Shown here one piece after another: positions 1-43,282 of a stretch of DNA of 43,282 nucleotides. The stretch's first letter is position 1, and each line of letters opens with the position of its first letter. Made by a program: the position numbers and the translations under genes. The stretch is from Ruminiclostridium sp. (GTDB lineage: Bacteria > Bacillota > Clostridia > Oscillospirales > Ruminococcaceae): positions 1-43,282 of the forward strand of contig JAGAWN010000127.1 of NCBI GenBank assembly GCA_017941355.1, read 5' to 3'. A model generated the notes under the pieces. It saw only the letters and a list, made by a program, of their open reading frames with translations. It did not search any database and was not told where the DNA came from.

Positions 1-140
1 ATGTCAAGCTCATTTCGTCCTTCGGACGAACAAAAGTGCAAGGAAAATTTTAAAAATGGGGAATTTTCCTTGCACTTTTGCAACCGTGAAAAGCCTTCAA
101 GCTGCGCTATGAAGACTTTTCGCGGTTGATGAGCAGACAT
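1..140. repeat. Type I cloverleaf repeat (four-way junction)
   Basis: The segment can pair almost completely. The closing stem is 1-13 with 129-140 (11 pairs, small AA/A internal loop). Arm A is 14-20/24-30 (7 bp, 3-base loop), arm B is 31-49/62-80 (19 perfect pairs), arm C is 81-99/110-128 (about 18 pairs with one mismatch). No base is left unpaired at the junction. Pieces recur at 27163-27176, 37181-37207 and 43263-43282, so it is a dispersed element. There is no room for a protein. It ends 36 bases before the TerB gene. The structure was read by eye; mobility and function are inference. Confidence 0.8.
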
Positions 141-10257: not shown

Positions 10258-10343
10258 GGAACCGCTGATTGAATCTCTTATACAAAAATCAATACCGTGA
10301 AATTAATATTGAGATCTCTAATGTAGATTCAATCAGCGATTCC
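10258..10343 (-). repeat. MITE-like inverted-repeat element, copy 1
   Basis: The ends GGAACCGCTGATTGAATC (10258-10275) and 10326-10343 are inverted repeats with 17 of 18 pairs. On the minus strand the element aligns with 39574-39672 over its whole length, including the inner AGAGATCTCAAT block and the TIRs. It has no ORF, so it would need transposase in trans. It lies in the leader of the minus-strand gene. The remainder of 10239-10619 holds only the promoter at 10483 and AT-rich DNA. Confidence 0.75.
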
Positions 10344-10619: not shown

Positions 10620-12617
10620 ATGAAAAAGTTAAGATCATTGTCAATTACTGCGGCAGTTCTTGCCGCGGCAACCCTCATGTCAACCGCAAGCTATGCCGAG
10701 GGCTTCTTCCCGCAGCTCGCGGAGATCGTGAATAATCCCGAAGCGTCGCAGAACACCTATGTTACCCCGATGACAAACAGCACCGCTTCCGCAAAGTACA
10801 AGAAATTTACGGCTGCGAAGCCCAAAGTGACTGCGGTATCCGACTGGTACGGCAGAGAGCTTGTGTGGAATCCTGTTGACAACGCACTGCTCTATTACGT
10901 TTATAAAAAGGGCAGCACGGGCTATTCGCTGTGCGGCAAGACGAGCGATACCTCGTTTTATACAGATGAGGACGGTTTCTATTATGTTCGCGCGGTGACT
11001 TACAACTACAACGACAAGCGCGTTTTCAGCAAGCGCTCCGACGTTGTGAAAATGGAATATTATTACGAATATGATTATTCGACCGATGATGTCGATTATG
11101 CTATGCCGGAGACTGTGAACAGTACAGCGGAATACGCGGAAGAGGACGGCGGAGTTTATGAAGAAGCGGGCTACTGGGGCGATGATGAAGTGTGGCTGGA
11201 CGACTCGGATCACGTTTATCCCGAAGATGCGCTGACCGGTGAGGAATACTCGCACTACGACGTTGACGGATTCAAGAAAGCTGCACAGACTCCGCTTTCC
11301 ACATTCTCAACCGATGTAGATACCGCTTCCTACGCGAACATACGCAGACTTGCGACTGACGGCTACTACATTCCCGAGGACGCGGTGCGTATCGAGGAAA
11401 TGCTCAACTACTTCGACTACAACTACAAGCGTCCGAGCAAGAGCAGTTTCAACGTTACCTACGAATACAGCGACTGCCCGTGGAACAAGGACGCGCGGCT
11501 TCTGTACATGGGCATACAGGCGAAGGACACAGCGACCGAACCGAACAACAACTATGTGTTCCTCATTGATGTCAGCGGCTCGATGTACTCCAAGGATAAG
11601 CTCCCGCTGGTGCAGGAAGCGCTGAAAAAGTTTGCGAACGAAATGACATCAAAAGACCGTATCTCGATCGTGACCTATTCCGGTATGGAGAAGGTCGTTG
11701 TAGCGGGTGCGCGCGGAAATATGAAGAACTGCATCTCCGACCTTGCGGACAGCCTCATTGCGGACGGCGTTACGAACGGTGAGCGCGGTATCACAATGGC
11801 GTATGAGATCGCGGCAAAATACTATATGAAGAACGGCAACAACCGTGTTATCATGGCTACCGACGGCGATCTGAACGTAGGCATCACCGACAAGGGCAGC
11901 CTGTCCGAGTTCATTTCGGAGAAGCGCGATACCGGCGTGTATCTGACTATCCTCGGCTTCGGCACCGGCAACCTCAAGGACGACAAGCTTGAAACTCTCG
12001 CAAAGGACGGAAACGGCAACTACCACTACATAGACTGCGCTGCGGAGGCGACAAAGGTACTGGTTGACGAGCGCAGAAAGACGATGATAACGGTTGCGGA
12101 CGATGTGAAGATACAGGTCGAGTTCAATCCGAACATAGTTGACAGCTACAAGCTGATAGGCTACGACGGACGCAAGCTTGCAAACGAAGACTTTACCGAC
12201 GACAAGAAAGACGCTGCCGATATGGGCGCGGGACAGAGCGTGACAGTTATGTATGAGATCATACCCGCGAAGAGCAGCAGCGGTTCTTCTCTTATCTACC
12301 AGACTTCCGGCAATAACAAGACGGATATCTGCACAGTCAAGATCAACTATAAGGAACCCGGCAAGACGAAGTCCTCAACAGCAAGCCTTGCTCTGAAAGC
12401 GGCGAATTACTGCAAATACTCAAAAACGGGTATCCGCTTTAAGTTCGCGGCGTGCGTTGCGGAAACCGCAATGGCACTGCGCGGTGACGAGCAGTACGGC
12501 AGCGTGTCTCTCGAAAGCGCTGCGAAGCGTTTCTCCAAGCTTAACGCAAAGGAGCTTGAAACGATCGGCTACAGTGACGATTTCGGAGCATTGCTGGAAA
12601 TGCTTACAAACCGATAA
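10620..12617 (+). CDS. Secreted YfbK-like von Willebrand factor A protein
   Basis: The ATG at 10620 is chosen because AGGGAGG stands 6 bases upstream and a clear signal peptide follows (KK, hydrophobic core, AxA-type site near ASYA-EG); an upstream in-frame ATG at 10530 would bury it. No lipobox is present. The 665-residue protein has an Fn3-like segment (about 50-110), a Tyr/Asp/Glu-rich linker, a YfbK-type N-terminal domain (STFSTDVDTASYANIRR), a vWA domain with full MIDAS (DVSGSM, Thr in GERGITMA, MATDGD), and a DUF3520-like C-terminal part. YfbK-family proteins are exported and of unclear role; adhesion or envelope scaffolding is plausible. It is monocistronic, ending in a hairpin. Confidence 0.88.
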   Translation: MKKLRSLSITAAVLAAATLMSTASYAEGFFPQLAEIVNNPEASQNTYVTPMTNSTASAKYKKFTAAKPKVTAVSDWYGRELVWNPVDNALLYYVYKKGSTGYSLCGKTSDTSFYTDEDGFYYVRAVTYNYNDKRVFSKRSDVVKMEYYYEYDYSTDDVDYAMPETVNSTAEYAEEDGGVYEEAGYWGDDEVWLDDSDHVYPEDALTGEEYSHYDVDGFKKAAQTPLSTFSTDVDTASYANIRRLATDGYYIPEDAVRIEEMLNYFDYNYKRPSKSSFNVTYEYSDCPWNKDARLLYMGIQAKDTATEPNNNYVFLIDVSGSMYSKDKLPLVQEALKKFANEMTSKDRISIVTYSGMEKVVVAGARGNMKNCISDLADSLIADGVTNGERGITMAYEIAAKYYMKNGNNRVIMATDGDLNVGITDKGSLSEFISEKRDTGVYLTILGFGTGNLKDDKLETLAKDGNGNYHYIDCAAEATKVLVDERRKTMITVADDVKIQVEFNPNIVDSYKLIGYDGRKLANEDFTDDKKDAADMGAGQSVTVMYEIIPAKSSSGSSLIYQTSGNNKTDICTVKINYKEPGKTKSSTASLALKAANYCKYSKTGIRFKFAACVAETAMALRGDEQYGSVSLESAAKRFSKLNAKELETIGYSDDFGALLEMLTNR

Positions 12618-12623
12618 TAAAAG

Positions 12624-12651
12624 ACGGGCGGTTCTTTTACGAACCGTCCGT
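12624..12651 (+). terminator. Terminator-like hairpin after vWA gene
   Basis: An 11-bp stem (12624-12634/12641-12651) with loop TTTTAC is followed by TCTGTTTG. Nearly the same hairpin recurs at 12811-12840. Confidence 0.65.
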
Positions 12652-12698
12652 TCTGTTTGTCAATAAAGCTGTATAGAGTGTTCTTTTTGCAGAGTTAC

Positions 12699-12808
12699 GA
12701 ATCTCCGTGAAACGGCATGGATCCAGCGTCACGCTGGCGCTGTCCAGCCGCGTAGGCTGGCACTGTCCGCGTAGGACGTCTGTCGAAAAAGTTCCTTTTT
12801 CGACAGAC
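12699..12808. repeat. Hairpin-cluster repeat, copy 1
   Basis: A 47-base core (12699-12745) matches the complement of 34655-34701 at 42 of 47 positions. Its hairpin CCAGCGT-C-ACGCTGG (12723-12737) becomes CCGGCGT-C-ACGCCGG in the other copy, a compensatory change. Here it is followed by three more hairpins: 12744-12749/12755-12760 and 12765-12768/12774-12777, both with loop GCGTA, and a perfect 13-bp stem 12778-12790/12796-12808. No ORF is credible. A structured mobile repeat is the likely nature. Confidence 0.7.
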
Positions 12809-12810
12809 TG

Positions 12811-12840
12811 AACGGACGGTTCTTTTACGAACCGTCCGTT
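12811..12840 (-). terminator. Hairpin after the coiled-coil gene
   Basis: A perfect 12-bp stem (12811-12822/12829-12840) with loop TTTTAC lies just beyond the minus-strand stop. It nearly duplicates the hairpin at 12624-12651, so the pair brackets the repeat cluster. It lacks a good T tract on the minus strand. Confidence 0.5.
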
Positions 12841-12844
12841 TATG

Positions 12845-13297
12845 TTATCTGATAGTGTTTTTGAGTGCGCTTCTTGCTTTCTTGACATCTATGATATCGT
12901 TGGAGAGCAGCTCCTCGACCTTTGTGAGCATATTATCGACATACTTGTTGGTCATGTCGCGCAGTTCCTTGGTCTGCTCCTGCGCGGCGGCATTGATCTC
13001 ATTCGCTTTCGCGGTTGCCTGACGGACTATCTCCTGCTGCGCTACAAGAGCGGCGGCGCGCTGCTCGGCTTTTGCGACGATCGCGGCAGCCTCGTTCTTT
13101 GCGTTGTTCAGGATAGTCTTGCGGTCATTCACAAGATCGTGCGCCTGCTTGATCTCCCTCGGCATATTCAGCCGTATCTCATCTACAAGCTCCCTCATCT
13201 TCTCAACGTCGATAAGAGATTTCTTGTTTGAGAACGGCACGTTCACCGCCTTGTCGAGCATATCGTCCATAAGCTCCAGAATTTCGTCAATGTTCAT
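12845..13297 (-). CDS. Coiled-coil protein resembling F0F1 ATPase subunit b
   Basis: This 150-residue protein is almost entirely helical and rich in Ala, Glu, Gln and Lys, with a long coiled coil (about 30-125; AKNEAAAIVAKAEQRAAALV within it). It looks like the stalk of ATP synthase subunit b but has no N-terminal membrane helix and no ATP synthase neighbours. Its start overlaps the end of coaD by 11 bases, so the two are translationally coupled. It is the last gene of the uvrC-rsmD-coaD unit. I recall similar small coiled-coil genes next to coaD in Clostridia; the function is unknown, possibly cell division or envelope scaffolding. Confidence 0.75.
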   Translation of the reverse strand: MNIDEILELMDDMLDKAVNVPFSNKKSLIDVEKMRELVDEIRLNMPREIKQAHDLVNDRKTILNNAKNEAAAIVAKAEQRAAALVAQQEIVRQATAKANEINAAAQEQTKELRDMTNKYVDNMLTKVEELLSNDIIDVKKARSALKNTIR

Positions 13298-25343: not shown

Positions 25344-27161
25344 ATGAAAACGTCCATGAAGAAAAGAATGTTGAGACTGGGAATTCTCTGCGCAGGTATC
25401 GGCTCGTTCGCAGTTGCTATATTTGCCGCAATAGCCATGAATATTGTAGCCGCCGGTTTTGCGGAAAAACTCGGCAATACCGTGATCGACAGCGCTGTTT
25501 CATCTTTTAGAGAAGAGGTCACTTATCTTTCCGACGGGCTTCGTGATGCCGAACCGGGCGGTACGAGCGATATTTTTGATGAGCTGTTTCTCCTCGGAGA
25601 ACCGCAGAGCTATGATTACAGCGCGTTTGCGGAAGAATGTCGGCAGCTTTCCGCAGGTTCGGTTTCGTTCGCATACATAGGTTCAGCCGATATAAACCTC
25701 GTTGCCTTTAACAGAGGATCGGATATAATAGTCGGTACACTTGAGGGTACTTACTTCGATTATGCGATCAGTATCATGGGCAGCGCAGATACACACGGAT
25801 ACCTTGTAAATAACAAAAACGGCAAGGTGGTGTTAGCGACAAACAAGAACGAGTGCGGCAGCAGCATCGAGGGAAATTCTCTTTACACAAACATTCTTGC
25901 GGGCGTAAGAAACGGCAAGTCCGTACACGAGGGCGGCTCTTTCTCACAGTATGTCGTATTCGGCGCACCGTTAAGCTCATCCACGGATTACAGCGTTATA
26001 TATGTTTCGGATTCTTCTCTTATCTACCGCGGCGGCAAGATAGCCACGACGGCTATGATAGGCTGGGCGCTTGTGCTGACATTCACCGGCGTTGTGGTAT
26101 CTATCGGCGTAGCGAAGAAGATCACGGCTTCGATAGTTCCCACGGCGGAGTGCCTCGAAAAGTTCTCGCGCGGTGAGATAGACACATCGTTCAAGGCAAA
26201 CGACAGAGGGGACGAGACCGAAGTTCTTTCACAGGCTATGGAAAAGACTATCGGAAACCTCGGCACATACATCAGAGATATCGACTTCATGCTCTCGGAG
26301 ATATCTCAGGGCAATCTGACCGCGCAGAGCAGCTGCGAATACGCGGGCGATTTCAACAATATCAAGCGTTCTCTCGAAAGTATCGCATCTACGCTCAAAT
26401 CGACGATATCCGCTATCCGTGACGCGGGCGAGCAGGTAAGCAGCGGCGTAGGCTCCCTTGCGAGCGGCGCACAGAGCCTTGCGAACAACTCCAGCACAGA
26501 AGCGGGAACGCTTAAAGAGCTTGACGCGCTCGTTAAGAACATAAACGAGAATGTAACCGCAAACGCGGAAATGACTGACCGCATGAGAGGTCTTTCGGAG
26601 CAGACTGTCCAGAACGTCGAAACCGGCAACCGCAATATGCAGAATCTCAGCGAAGCTATCGAGGATATCAGAAAGGCTTCCGAGGAGATCCAGTCCATTG
26701 CGAAGCTCATTGACGACATCGCGTTCCAGACCAACATTCTTGCGCTTAACGCGGCAGTCGAAGCTGCACGCGCGGGTGAAGCGGGCAAGGGCTTTGCCGT
26801 TGTCGCAGATGAAGTCCGCAACCTCGCAAGCAAATCCGCAGAAGCCGCAAAGAACGCGGTACAGGTCATCGGACGCTGTGTGGCGGCAGTGGATCAGGGC
26901 GTTCAGCTCAACCAGTCGGCAAGCCAGTCCCTCGCTCAGGTAAGCGAGTCGGTGCAGGAATTCAGCGTTCTTGTGGGCAAGGTAGCGGATTCCTCAAGTC
27001 AGCAGGCACGGGACATCAGCACGGTCAACAGCGGACTTACCAGCATTACAAGCGTTGTTCAGAGCAATGCCGCAACAGCGGAGCAGTCGGCGGCAAGCTC
27101 GGAAGAACTTGCAAGCCAGGCACAGGTGCTCGAACAGCAGCTTCGTCATTTCAGAGTATAA
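25344..27161 (+). CDS. Methyl-accepting chemotaxis protein 1
   Basis: The ATG at 25344 has GAAAGGA about 10 bases upstream; an upstream in-frame ATG (25290) lies before the -10 box TATAAT at 25307-25312 and is unlikely. The 605-residue receptor has a TM helix (about 11-33), an extracytoplasmic cache-like ligand domain (about 40-225), a second TM (about 230-252), a HAMP region, and a long signalling coiled coil with the CheA/CheW tip (about 455-505; [20 protein letters not shown]). No CheR-tethering pentapeptide is seen. Ligand unknown. The stop abuts the cloverleaf repeat at 27163. Confidence 0.93.
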
Positions 27162-27162
27162 C

Positions 27163-27286
27163 TAATGTCTGCTCATCAAGGAATGTGTCCGTTGTTCCAA
27201 TGCGCCGCAGGTGCATTGGAACAACATCTGAAAGTCTGTTGACTTTCAGACAATAACTGCCAAAAGGCAGTTATTGAGGACACATT
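27163..27286. repeat. Type II cloverleaf repeat plus type I remnant
   Basis: 27182-27286 forms a four-way junction. Closing stem 27182-27190/27278-27286 (9 bp); arm 1 27191-27206/27210-27225 (16 pairs, triloop GCA); arm 2 27227-27236/27241-27250 (10 bp); arm 3 27251-27261/27266-27276 (11 bp, AAAA loop). Only two junction bases are unpaired (27226, 27277). The inverted copy is 43148-43257. 27163-27176 is the last strand of a type I closing stem, whose arms have been lost. It sits directly after the chemoreceptor stop. Confidence 0.85.
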
Positions 27287-27298
27287 AACTATCATGCC

Positions 27299-37180: not shown

Positions 37181-37207
37181 ATTAATGTCTGCTCATCAAC
37201 CGCGAAA
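37181..37207 (-). repeat. Decayed type I cloverleaf fragment
   Basis: 27 bases identical to the complement of 118-144: the last strand of the closing stem and the end of arm C. The rest of the element is missing. It ends 6 bases from the stop codon of the minus-strand LysR gene. Confidence 0.85.
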
Positions 37208-39573: not shown

Positions 39574-39672
39574 GGAACCGCTGATTAAATCGACATCAGA
39601 GATCTCAATGTTGATATTATATGCCTTTCGCGGTGCCGGTTTTTGGGTAAAAGCGATTTAATCAGTGGTTCC
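39574..39672 (+). repeat. MITE-like inverted-repeat element, copy 2
   Basis: The terminal repeats GGAACCGCTGATTAAATCG (39574-39592) and 39654-39672 pair at 18 of 19 positions. CTAT lies on both outer sides (39570-39573 and 39673-39676), a possible 4-bp target duplication. It aligns with the complement of 10258-10343, with a short internal insertion. No ORF. Confidence 0.75.
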
Positions 39673-43117: not shown

Positions 43118-43146
43118 TTGACATTTGTGTTATTTGATGTTATAAT
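43118..43146 (+). promoter_or_regulatory. Consensus sigma-A promoter facing the cloverleaf
   Basis: TTGACA (43118-43123), exactly 17 bases, TATAAT (43141-43146). Its predicted start (about 43153) falls inside the closing stem of the type II element, so the transcript would begin with the cloverleaf and leave the window. The rest of 43000-43117 shows only the hairpin mentioned above. Confidence 0.85.
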
Positions 43147-43147
43147 A

Positions 43148-43282
43148 AATGTGTCCTCAATAACTGCCTTTTGGCAGTTATTGCCTGAAAGTCTGTAAAA
43201 CAGACTTTCAGATGTTGTTCCAATGCACCTGCGGCGCATTGGAACAACGGACACATTCCTTGATGTCAAGCTCATTTCGTCC
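43148..43282. repeat. Type II cloverleaf followed by start of type I
   Basis: Closing stem 43148-43156/43249-43257; arms 43158-43168/43173-43183, 43185-43196/43200-43211 and 43214-43229/43233-43248. It is the inverted copy of 27182-27286, differing mainly by a longer middle arm that stays paired. After CCTTG (43258-43262) the first 20 bases of type I follow (43263-43282) and the window ends in its first arm. The order type II-CCTTG-type I is also seen, decayed, at 27163-27286. Confidence 0.85.

Follow-up and report, generated by a model that had tools for sequence, protein, structure and literature searches.

The cloverleaf repeat reported at 27182-27286 of the window (the whole 43,282-nucleotide stretch of DNA analyzed here) is probably the right half of a MITE-like element of approximately 254 bp. 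This element carries no transposase gene. Its predicted fold is a pair of mirror-image cloverleafs, target duplications of 6-7 bp bound it, and a cut-or-copy-and-paste (DDE-type) transposase encoded elsewhere likely mobilizes it in trans. A first-pass annotation of the window had described a 105-base unit with a 9-bp closing stem, arms of 16, 10, and 11 pairs, and 2 unpaired bases at the junction, along with an inverted copy at 43148-43257. This architecture was borne out. Folded alone, the 27182-27286 sequence reaches -45.7 kcal/mol against a mean of -11.55 for shuffled sequences (z = -14.0), a value equaled by 0 of 200 shuffles and one that excludes a chance origin of the palindrome, and the inverted copy shows the same kind of predicted fold (z = -13.9). 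The limits had been placed wrongly, however, since in the outermost pair a linker base (27182) is matched with the base that opens the target duplication (27286). The true short-form limits are 27165-27285 (121 bp) with TAACTA on either side, putting the left terminus 17 bases outside the reported start, and the cloverleaf taken for a complete unit is instead the right half of a 254-bp twin-cloverleaf element. A difference in middle-arm length between the 2 copies, which had been offered as a sign of selection on structure, is real but makes weak proof of selection because one 5-nt hairpin-tip deletion in the 27182 copy can explain it.

The whole unit of 254 bp emerged when copies from the same assembly were lined up and found to have more sequence in common on one side. 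Cloverleaf I consists of ATGTC-T-GCTCAT, three arms, and ATGAGC-TT-GACAT; it is followed by the six-base linker CAAGGA and by cloverleaf II, which consists of ATGTGTCC, three arms, and GGACACAT. In the predicted fold, the two cloverleafs are mirror images, with each terminus able to pair with its own inverted copy approximately 100-140 bp inside, and both were recovered unprompted by RNAalifold from 47 genus copies. Copy lengths range from 85 to 323 bp, full-length copies being 250-258 bp, and across 49 full-length copies the longest ORF is at most 85 aa (median 64 aa), so that a transposase-sized ORF is absent. Four copies in 2 genomes (L123, L124, L125, and L126 in G002 and G055) represent a variant of 322-323 bp with arm 1 of cloverleaf II expanded to approximately 100 nt; their predicted folding energies are -160.9 to -179.5 kcal/mol.

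The short form in the window (plus strand) comprises the left terminal repeat, the linker, and cloverleaf II, without the arms of cloverleaf I. Its left terminal inverted repeat and joint, ATGTCTGCTCATCAAGG, lie at 27165..27181, and cloverleaf II lies at 27183..27285, with a predicted closing stem of 8 bp (ATGTGTCC paired with GGACACAT) and arms at 27191-27225, 27227-27250, and 27251-27276 (limits taken from the fold). The left target-site duplication (27159..27164) contains the TAA stop codon of the gene immediately upstream, a chemotaxis receptor by Pfam (PF00015); the right one is at 27286..27291, and a D-Tyr-tRNA deacylase gene (PF02580) lies downstream. The Pfam comparison covered four proteins of the window. 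The joint falls between CATCAA repeats, and the identical deleted joint is found in 2 other copies, L011 and L016. It is likely that this short form arose by deletion between the CATCAA repeats, and that the element either transposed in its reduced form or was reduced only once it had inserted.

Three further parts of the element were located in the window. A longer copy on the minus strand is represented by its right part (43149..43282), with cloverleaf II at 43149-43256, the 6-nt linker at 43257-43262, and the start of cloverleaf I at 43263-43282, where it is truncated by the contig end; its right-terminus flank at 43143..43148 reads TTATTA on the element strand, and its opposite flank is outside the contig. 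Cloverleaf I, the left half of a full-length copy, occupies 1..140 of the minus strand with its left terminus at 140 and is truncated by the contig start. A solo left end on the plus strand, ATGTCTGCTCATCAACCGCGAA at 37185..37206, is likely a copy remnant. The window begins (1-20) and ends (43263-43282) with the same 20 bases on the same strand, and as a circle it would complete one full element; contigs C265, C240, C130, and C133 also end at these 20 bases, which makes an assembly break likelier than a circle. Many copies are truncated at contig ends, probably because the assembly breaks in this repeat.

Other repeats were also seen. A second palindromic family at 10258-10343 and 39574-39672 of the window has the ends GGAACCGCTGATTNAATC and differing interiors and is possibly another MITE. 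The sequence GGAACCGCTGATT (at most 1 mismatch) has 2 occurrences, in 1 of 410 loci. Near-identical 29-nt palindromes of the ACGGACGGTTCTTTTACGAACCGTCCGTT type, at 12624-12652 and 12812-12840, surround a hairpin-rich 159-nt stretch, and the predicted fold of 12600-12865 has an energy of -118.8 kcal/mol. On the minus strand from L153:979 onward (G000 C179), the left end and first arm of the element lead directly into a direct-repeat array, whose repeats of approximately 105-110 bp start with GGCAGAAAAA-TGCCCG.

The assembly from which the window derives (4.52 Mb, 300 contigs) contains 25 full-span cloverleaf copies of at least 86% identity, one decayed full-span copy (72%), and fragments. A whole-unit search of this genome returned 40 places (40 of 73 candidates scored, the 27165 copy not among them), a figure that includes halves at contig ends, so the true copy number may be lower. 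Across the genus, matches at E <= 0.001 were obtained in 21 of 71 genomes, counting this one, and not in the other 50, in a search that scored 10 candidates per genome and that decayed or diverged copies could escape.

Exact flanking repeats accompany most copies. Repeats of 5-7 bp were found at 44 of 61 sequence-distinct copies from 15 genus genomes, again including this one and counting identical sequences at different sites once. Setting aside 2 copies with short flanks leaves 59, of which 43 have an exact 6-7-bp repeat; 2000 right-flank shuffles gave 10.5 on average and never more than 20. The repeats vary by insertion (TTATTA, TAATTA, TATTTA, TACTTA, TAACTA, GAATTA, TATCTTA, and others) and mostly take the form TA-NN(N)-TA. 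The exact duplication is 6 bp in 31, 7 bp in 4, and absent in 13 of 48 genus copies; 6 bp in 15 and absent in 6 of the 21 g19/g65 copies; and 7 bp in 8, 6 bp in 2, and absent in 3 of the 13 f14 copies. Among diverged copies, a duplication-like repeat of at least 6 bp was present at 22 of 36, versus 5 of 720 random placements. The site of the window copy is empty in all 15 loci of other species that hold both neighbor genes (19 loci examined; 71 genomes searched), and position is not conserved at this, the one locus tested. By these sequence comparisons the element is mobile DNA, and the suggestion in the first-pass annotation of a non-autonomous palindromic element is well supported by its multiple copies, target duplications, empty sites, and lack of a transposase-sized ORF.

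Arm 1 is mispaired and recombinant-looking in L093 and L094, which may be assembly chimeras, and duplications are still present at both. Because these copies and the short forms without cloverleaf I keep their duplications, perfect pairing is either not strictly required or was lost later. No lone moving cloverleafs were seen among the copies inspected, while tandem copies with a common duplication-like joint occur at L086, L103, L159, and L168. Gene context was determined for 55 of the 61 copies with a home-made gene caller and, in many loci, short flanks; 13 of the 55 had no gene call and 0 lay inside a predicted gene. The left neighbor gene reads away in 28 of the 42 copies having a left gene call, too weak a signal to use, and an orientation bias relative to genes was rejected.

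We examined how the fold is kept in an alignment (A1) of 47 of the 49 full-length genus copies, L033 and L034 being omitted. Paired bases fill 97.8% of cells, compared with 36-42% in slid controls; double changes occur in 38 of 95 pairs versus 23.4 when shuffled (0 of 500 shuffles reach it), and covariation is 0.255 versus 0.107 shuffled. A covariance model (R1) built from 21 genus copies found matches in 20 of 396 genomes (13 of 126 genera) at the family level, 15 of 394 genomes (10 of 168 genera) at the order level, and 8 of 391 genomes (8 of 222 genera) at the class level. These tallies are rough, as they count the genome of origin, overlap in part, and include a few weak hits that are probably not members, and they lose copies because five candidates per genome were scored. 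Matches in f14, f20, f17 (G553), f36, f43, f82, and f87 are convincing by sequence, predicted fold, and length (the f87 copy, L405, holds a run of N). Weak R1 hits were not counted as members, namely L379, L380, and L408, which were folded, and the partial hit L409. A covariance-model search, the kind of check that had been proposed for the cloverleaf, thus reached diverged copies elsewhere in Clostridia, in genera, families, and orders other than those of the window, and the outcome named in advance as counting against it, an absence of further copies or a loss of pairing in them, is the reverse of what was found, as further copies exist and their pairing is kept.

In an alignment (A4) of 25 copies of other genera, none used for R1, 90.3% of 2241 cells are paired, double changes occur in 85 of 99 pairs versus 65.8 shuffled, and covariation is 0.578 versus 0.155 shuffled and at most 0.097 in slid controls; the slid controls weigh most because this alignment was fitted to the model. 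The 25 are matches at E up to 3e-16, a cut-off chosen against antisense matches, and 11 of them fall within a 44-row match table. Their closing stems are weaker (helix 2 paired at 61.9%, helix 6 at 78.9%), the best-kept sequence lies in the ends and the GTGCAAG hairpin, and the order and number of arms are preserved in the diverged copies inspected. Most copies bounded by exact duplications in G120 and G691 measure 253-257 bp, although duplications also accompany forms of only 115-179 bp, and G326-type copies are approximately 242 bp. Records matching an internal 21-base motif are, among the matches listed, Clostridia assemblies, several of them titled rumen or abomasum. On the evidence of the alignments, the predicted shape is kept across the class while most of the sequence has been replaced.

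Pairing of this kind could also be maintained without selection, if template switching during replication corrected one arm from the other and the arms themselves had no function. Two-sided changes far exceed wobble or A-C in the 25 diverged copies, with 580 double-change cells versus 79 and 58, and entire stems have been swapped with their loops retained, both of which this process would explain. Between near-identical copies, however, single changes dominate (320, of which 158 are G-T, 61 A-C, and 101 other, versus 51 double changes, with 5 other double differences), as expected for ordinary mutation followed by compensation. The closing stems, which span approximately 100-140 bp across three arms, covary too, though less well, and the preserved number and order of arms in the diverged copies also argues against such correction, which we consider an unlikely but live rival.

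A second alternative is that the repeat is a structured noncoding RNA gene, Clostridia-wide and spread around genomes, whose fold works as RNA. The strong covariation in both the genus and the diverged sets, a length near 254 nt in many copies, and the near-invariance of the GTGCAAG hairpin in diverged copies would fit such a gene. For a fold acting as RNA, G-T is expected to outnumber A-C on one strand. This was so in the genus set (48 versus 23 inferred events, p = 0.004) and in near-identical copies (158 versus 61, from non-independent comparisons), but G-T did not exceed A-C in the G326-type set (10 versus 14 cells) and did not do so significantly in the 25-copy set (79 versus 58, p = 0.087; G-T making up 79 of 2241 cells). 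With the data sets mixed, a one-strand G-U excess was rejected as proof of RNA; the excess thus favors the structured RNA raised in the first-pass annotation in one data set, is absent in another, and is not significant in a third. No Rfam family reached its gathering score in the window, and 13 loci gave nothing beyond miRNA matches below threshold. At the single locus tested, the position is not conserved, and a strong orientation bias to neighbors is absent. An RNA gene seems quite improbable to us; we lean toward a fold that acts at the DNA level and disfavor an RNA-level function.

The ends of the element bear on the type of enzyme that moves it. Terminal inverted repeats in the genus of the window are imperfect (ATGTCTGCTCA versus ATGTGTCCTCA), and in G120 both termini fit ATGYCYRCTRAACAA, with a terminal inverted repeat of approximately 15 bp. 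One 254-bp element of that genome (L340:1503-1756) has a perfect 15-bp terminal repeat, a TAGCTA duplication, and a different interior; its predicted fold is not clearly a twin cloverleaf, and the GTGCAAGG hairpin is still present. Two 44-bp elements in G691 (L390:398-441 and L391:367-410) consist of two identical facing ends with unmatched flanks.

Hairpin ends are the substrates of Y1/HUH transposases, and hairpins are predicted at both ends here, as they would be in a REP/PATE-like element if a hairpin-reading enzyme of this class transferred it as single-stranded DNA. Target duplications and terminal inverted repeats are unexpected in Y1/HUH elements such as REP/RAYT and IS200/IS605. Insertion without target duplication, their hallmark, is contradicted by 43 of 59 copies, and the combination of exact 6-7-bp duplications with inverted terminal repeats leaves the earlier proposal of a REP-type enzyme substrate unsupported and the whole reading very improbable. 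It is similarly hard to credit a recombination cassette of a tyrosine recombinase, in which the 6-7-bp repeats would be crossover (coupling) sequences like the A+T-rich ones of Tn916-type elements, which they match in size, because that mechanism brings one flank from the previous site and should leave flanks that differ, whereas here they are identical in 43 of 59 copies yet vary between insertions.

The duplications and terminal repeats lead us to propose a DDE-type transposase acting in trans, and we searched for the copy or helper that would encode it. Pairing ends 0.35-7 kb apart with equal flanks gave no gene-bearing copy in 284 loci (approximately 1.0 Mb), and the left-end pattern gave no autonomous copy in G000, G060, and G002 (20 stretches around chosen ends inspected). 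In G120, a genome of 2 contigs, and in G620, G691, and G753 (20 stretches inspected in the latter three), the end pattern likewise revealed no gene-bearing copy at no more than 3 mismatches, a setting that more mismatched partners would escape in genomes where solitary ends do occur. Two wide convergent end pairs were discarded, one of 1.5 kb in G120 that lies in ORFs identified by eye as an ABC-transporter operon and one of 24 kb in G691 with unlike flanks. One pattern searched in viral contigs had 0 matches, and the neighboring ORFs in five G326 stretches look, by eye, like ordinary chromosomal genes.

In three groups, the linker between the cloverleafs is as long as most of the target duplications. 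All 49 of the 49 genus copies have a linker of 6 nt, by a pattern admitting 6 or 7 nt only, and in 21 diverged copies, for which 4-10 nt were admitted, it is 7 nt in 9 of 9 from f14 and 6 nt in 5 of 5 from g19/g65. Linker and duplication length agree in genus g1 (6), in g19/g65 (6), and in f14 (7, as in most duplications there). L404 has a 7-nt linker without an exact duplication, and in the remaining 6 of the 21 (L264, L268, L270, L307, L309, and L369) no linker stands out clearly, the best fits ranging over 4-10 nt. Because the spacer has duplication length in the groups where both are measurable, we infer that the center of the element imitates a circle junction or goes back to a pair of units fused at a common duplication. 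The linker sequence is CAAGGA in 41 of 49 genus copies, and this conservation argues against a junction renewed at each move.

These features suggest how a MITE-like transposon with cloverleaf ends, likely mobilized in trans, might move. At each end, a helper enzyme would bind the terminal repeat ATGYSTRCT-AA-AA, and the palindromic arms, as DNA hairpins or cruciforms, would serve to mark the end or protect it. The center, made up of an inverted end, a spacer of 6-7 nt, and a second inverted end, would imitate the junction of abutted ends in a circular intermediate of transposition. With more doubt than confidence, we put forward the broader idea that the element may represent a class of mobile DNA in which DNA cloverleafs form the two ends and a permanent end-to-end junction with a duplication-length spacer makes up the entire body. 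Such an element would be read by its shape and end sequence, and not by its body, would move as a small circle or a folded strand via an unlinked helper, and would have held its architecture across Clostridia with most bases replaced.

Bacterial MITEs are usually regarded as young, host-specific sequence families; here, the composite shape, arm order, and target rule are recognizable between families of a class despite mostly different sequence. Since the shape can be recognized after the sequence has been replaced, it becomes directly testable whether palindromic repeats are selected, corrected, or tolerated. The element also points to a helper enzyme for which both the end sequence (ATGYSTRCT-AA-AA) and the target (TA-NN(N)-TA) are defined, and the match between linker and duplication length in three groups offers a concrete, falsifiable hypothesis for the reaction intermediate.

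Among known systems, the element works like a MITE, and its twin-cloverleaf form is not matched to a described family. The first-pass annotation knew of no named family, consistent with the Rfam result for the window and with the open-licence literature, where no cloverleaf MITE, transposase, or intergenic repeat like this one was described among the matches listed (titles and abstract starts). REP sequences and their RAYT transposases offer a likeness in being short intergenic palindromes in many copies; the duplications, terminal repeats, and composite twin cloverleaf set the present element apart from them. The circle junctions of the IS3, IS30, IS21, and IS256 families resemble its center in having inverted ends around a duplication-sized spacer, and in insertion sequences that form circles the spacer at the junction is about as long as the direct repeat, IS2 being an exception (PMC3299598). 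In those families, however, the junction is a transient intermediate of a whole insertion sequence, while here the junction-like center is permanent in a 254-bp element. Another likeness is to BOX of Streptococcus pneumoniae, which, with RUP and SPRITE, belongs to the modular structured interspersed repeats; in the excerpted description, BOX and RUP carry terminal repeats and duplications, BOX being composed of boxA and boxC around a variable tandem boxB array and almost absent from other streptococci except close relatives and a related set (PMC3049150). The fixed twin-cloverleaf layout (47 aligned copies) and class-wide distribution distinguish our element from BOX by description. The same excerpt defines MITEs as short sequences without a transposase gene that have terminal inverted repeats, a target duplication, high self-pairing, and many copies (PMC3049150), and the element has the MITE features that were tested (length and lack of a transposase gene, terminal inverted repeats, and duplication). 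It differs from bacterial MITEs in that no autonomous relative with the same ends was found in the few genomes searched at no more than 3 mismatches, and in its two three-armed cloverleafs, set in a fixed order and recognizable in several families despite mostly different sequence.
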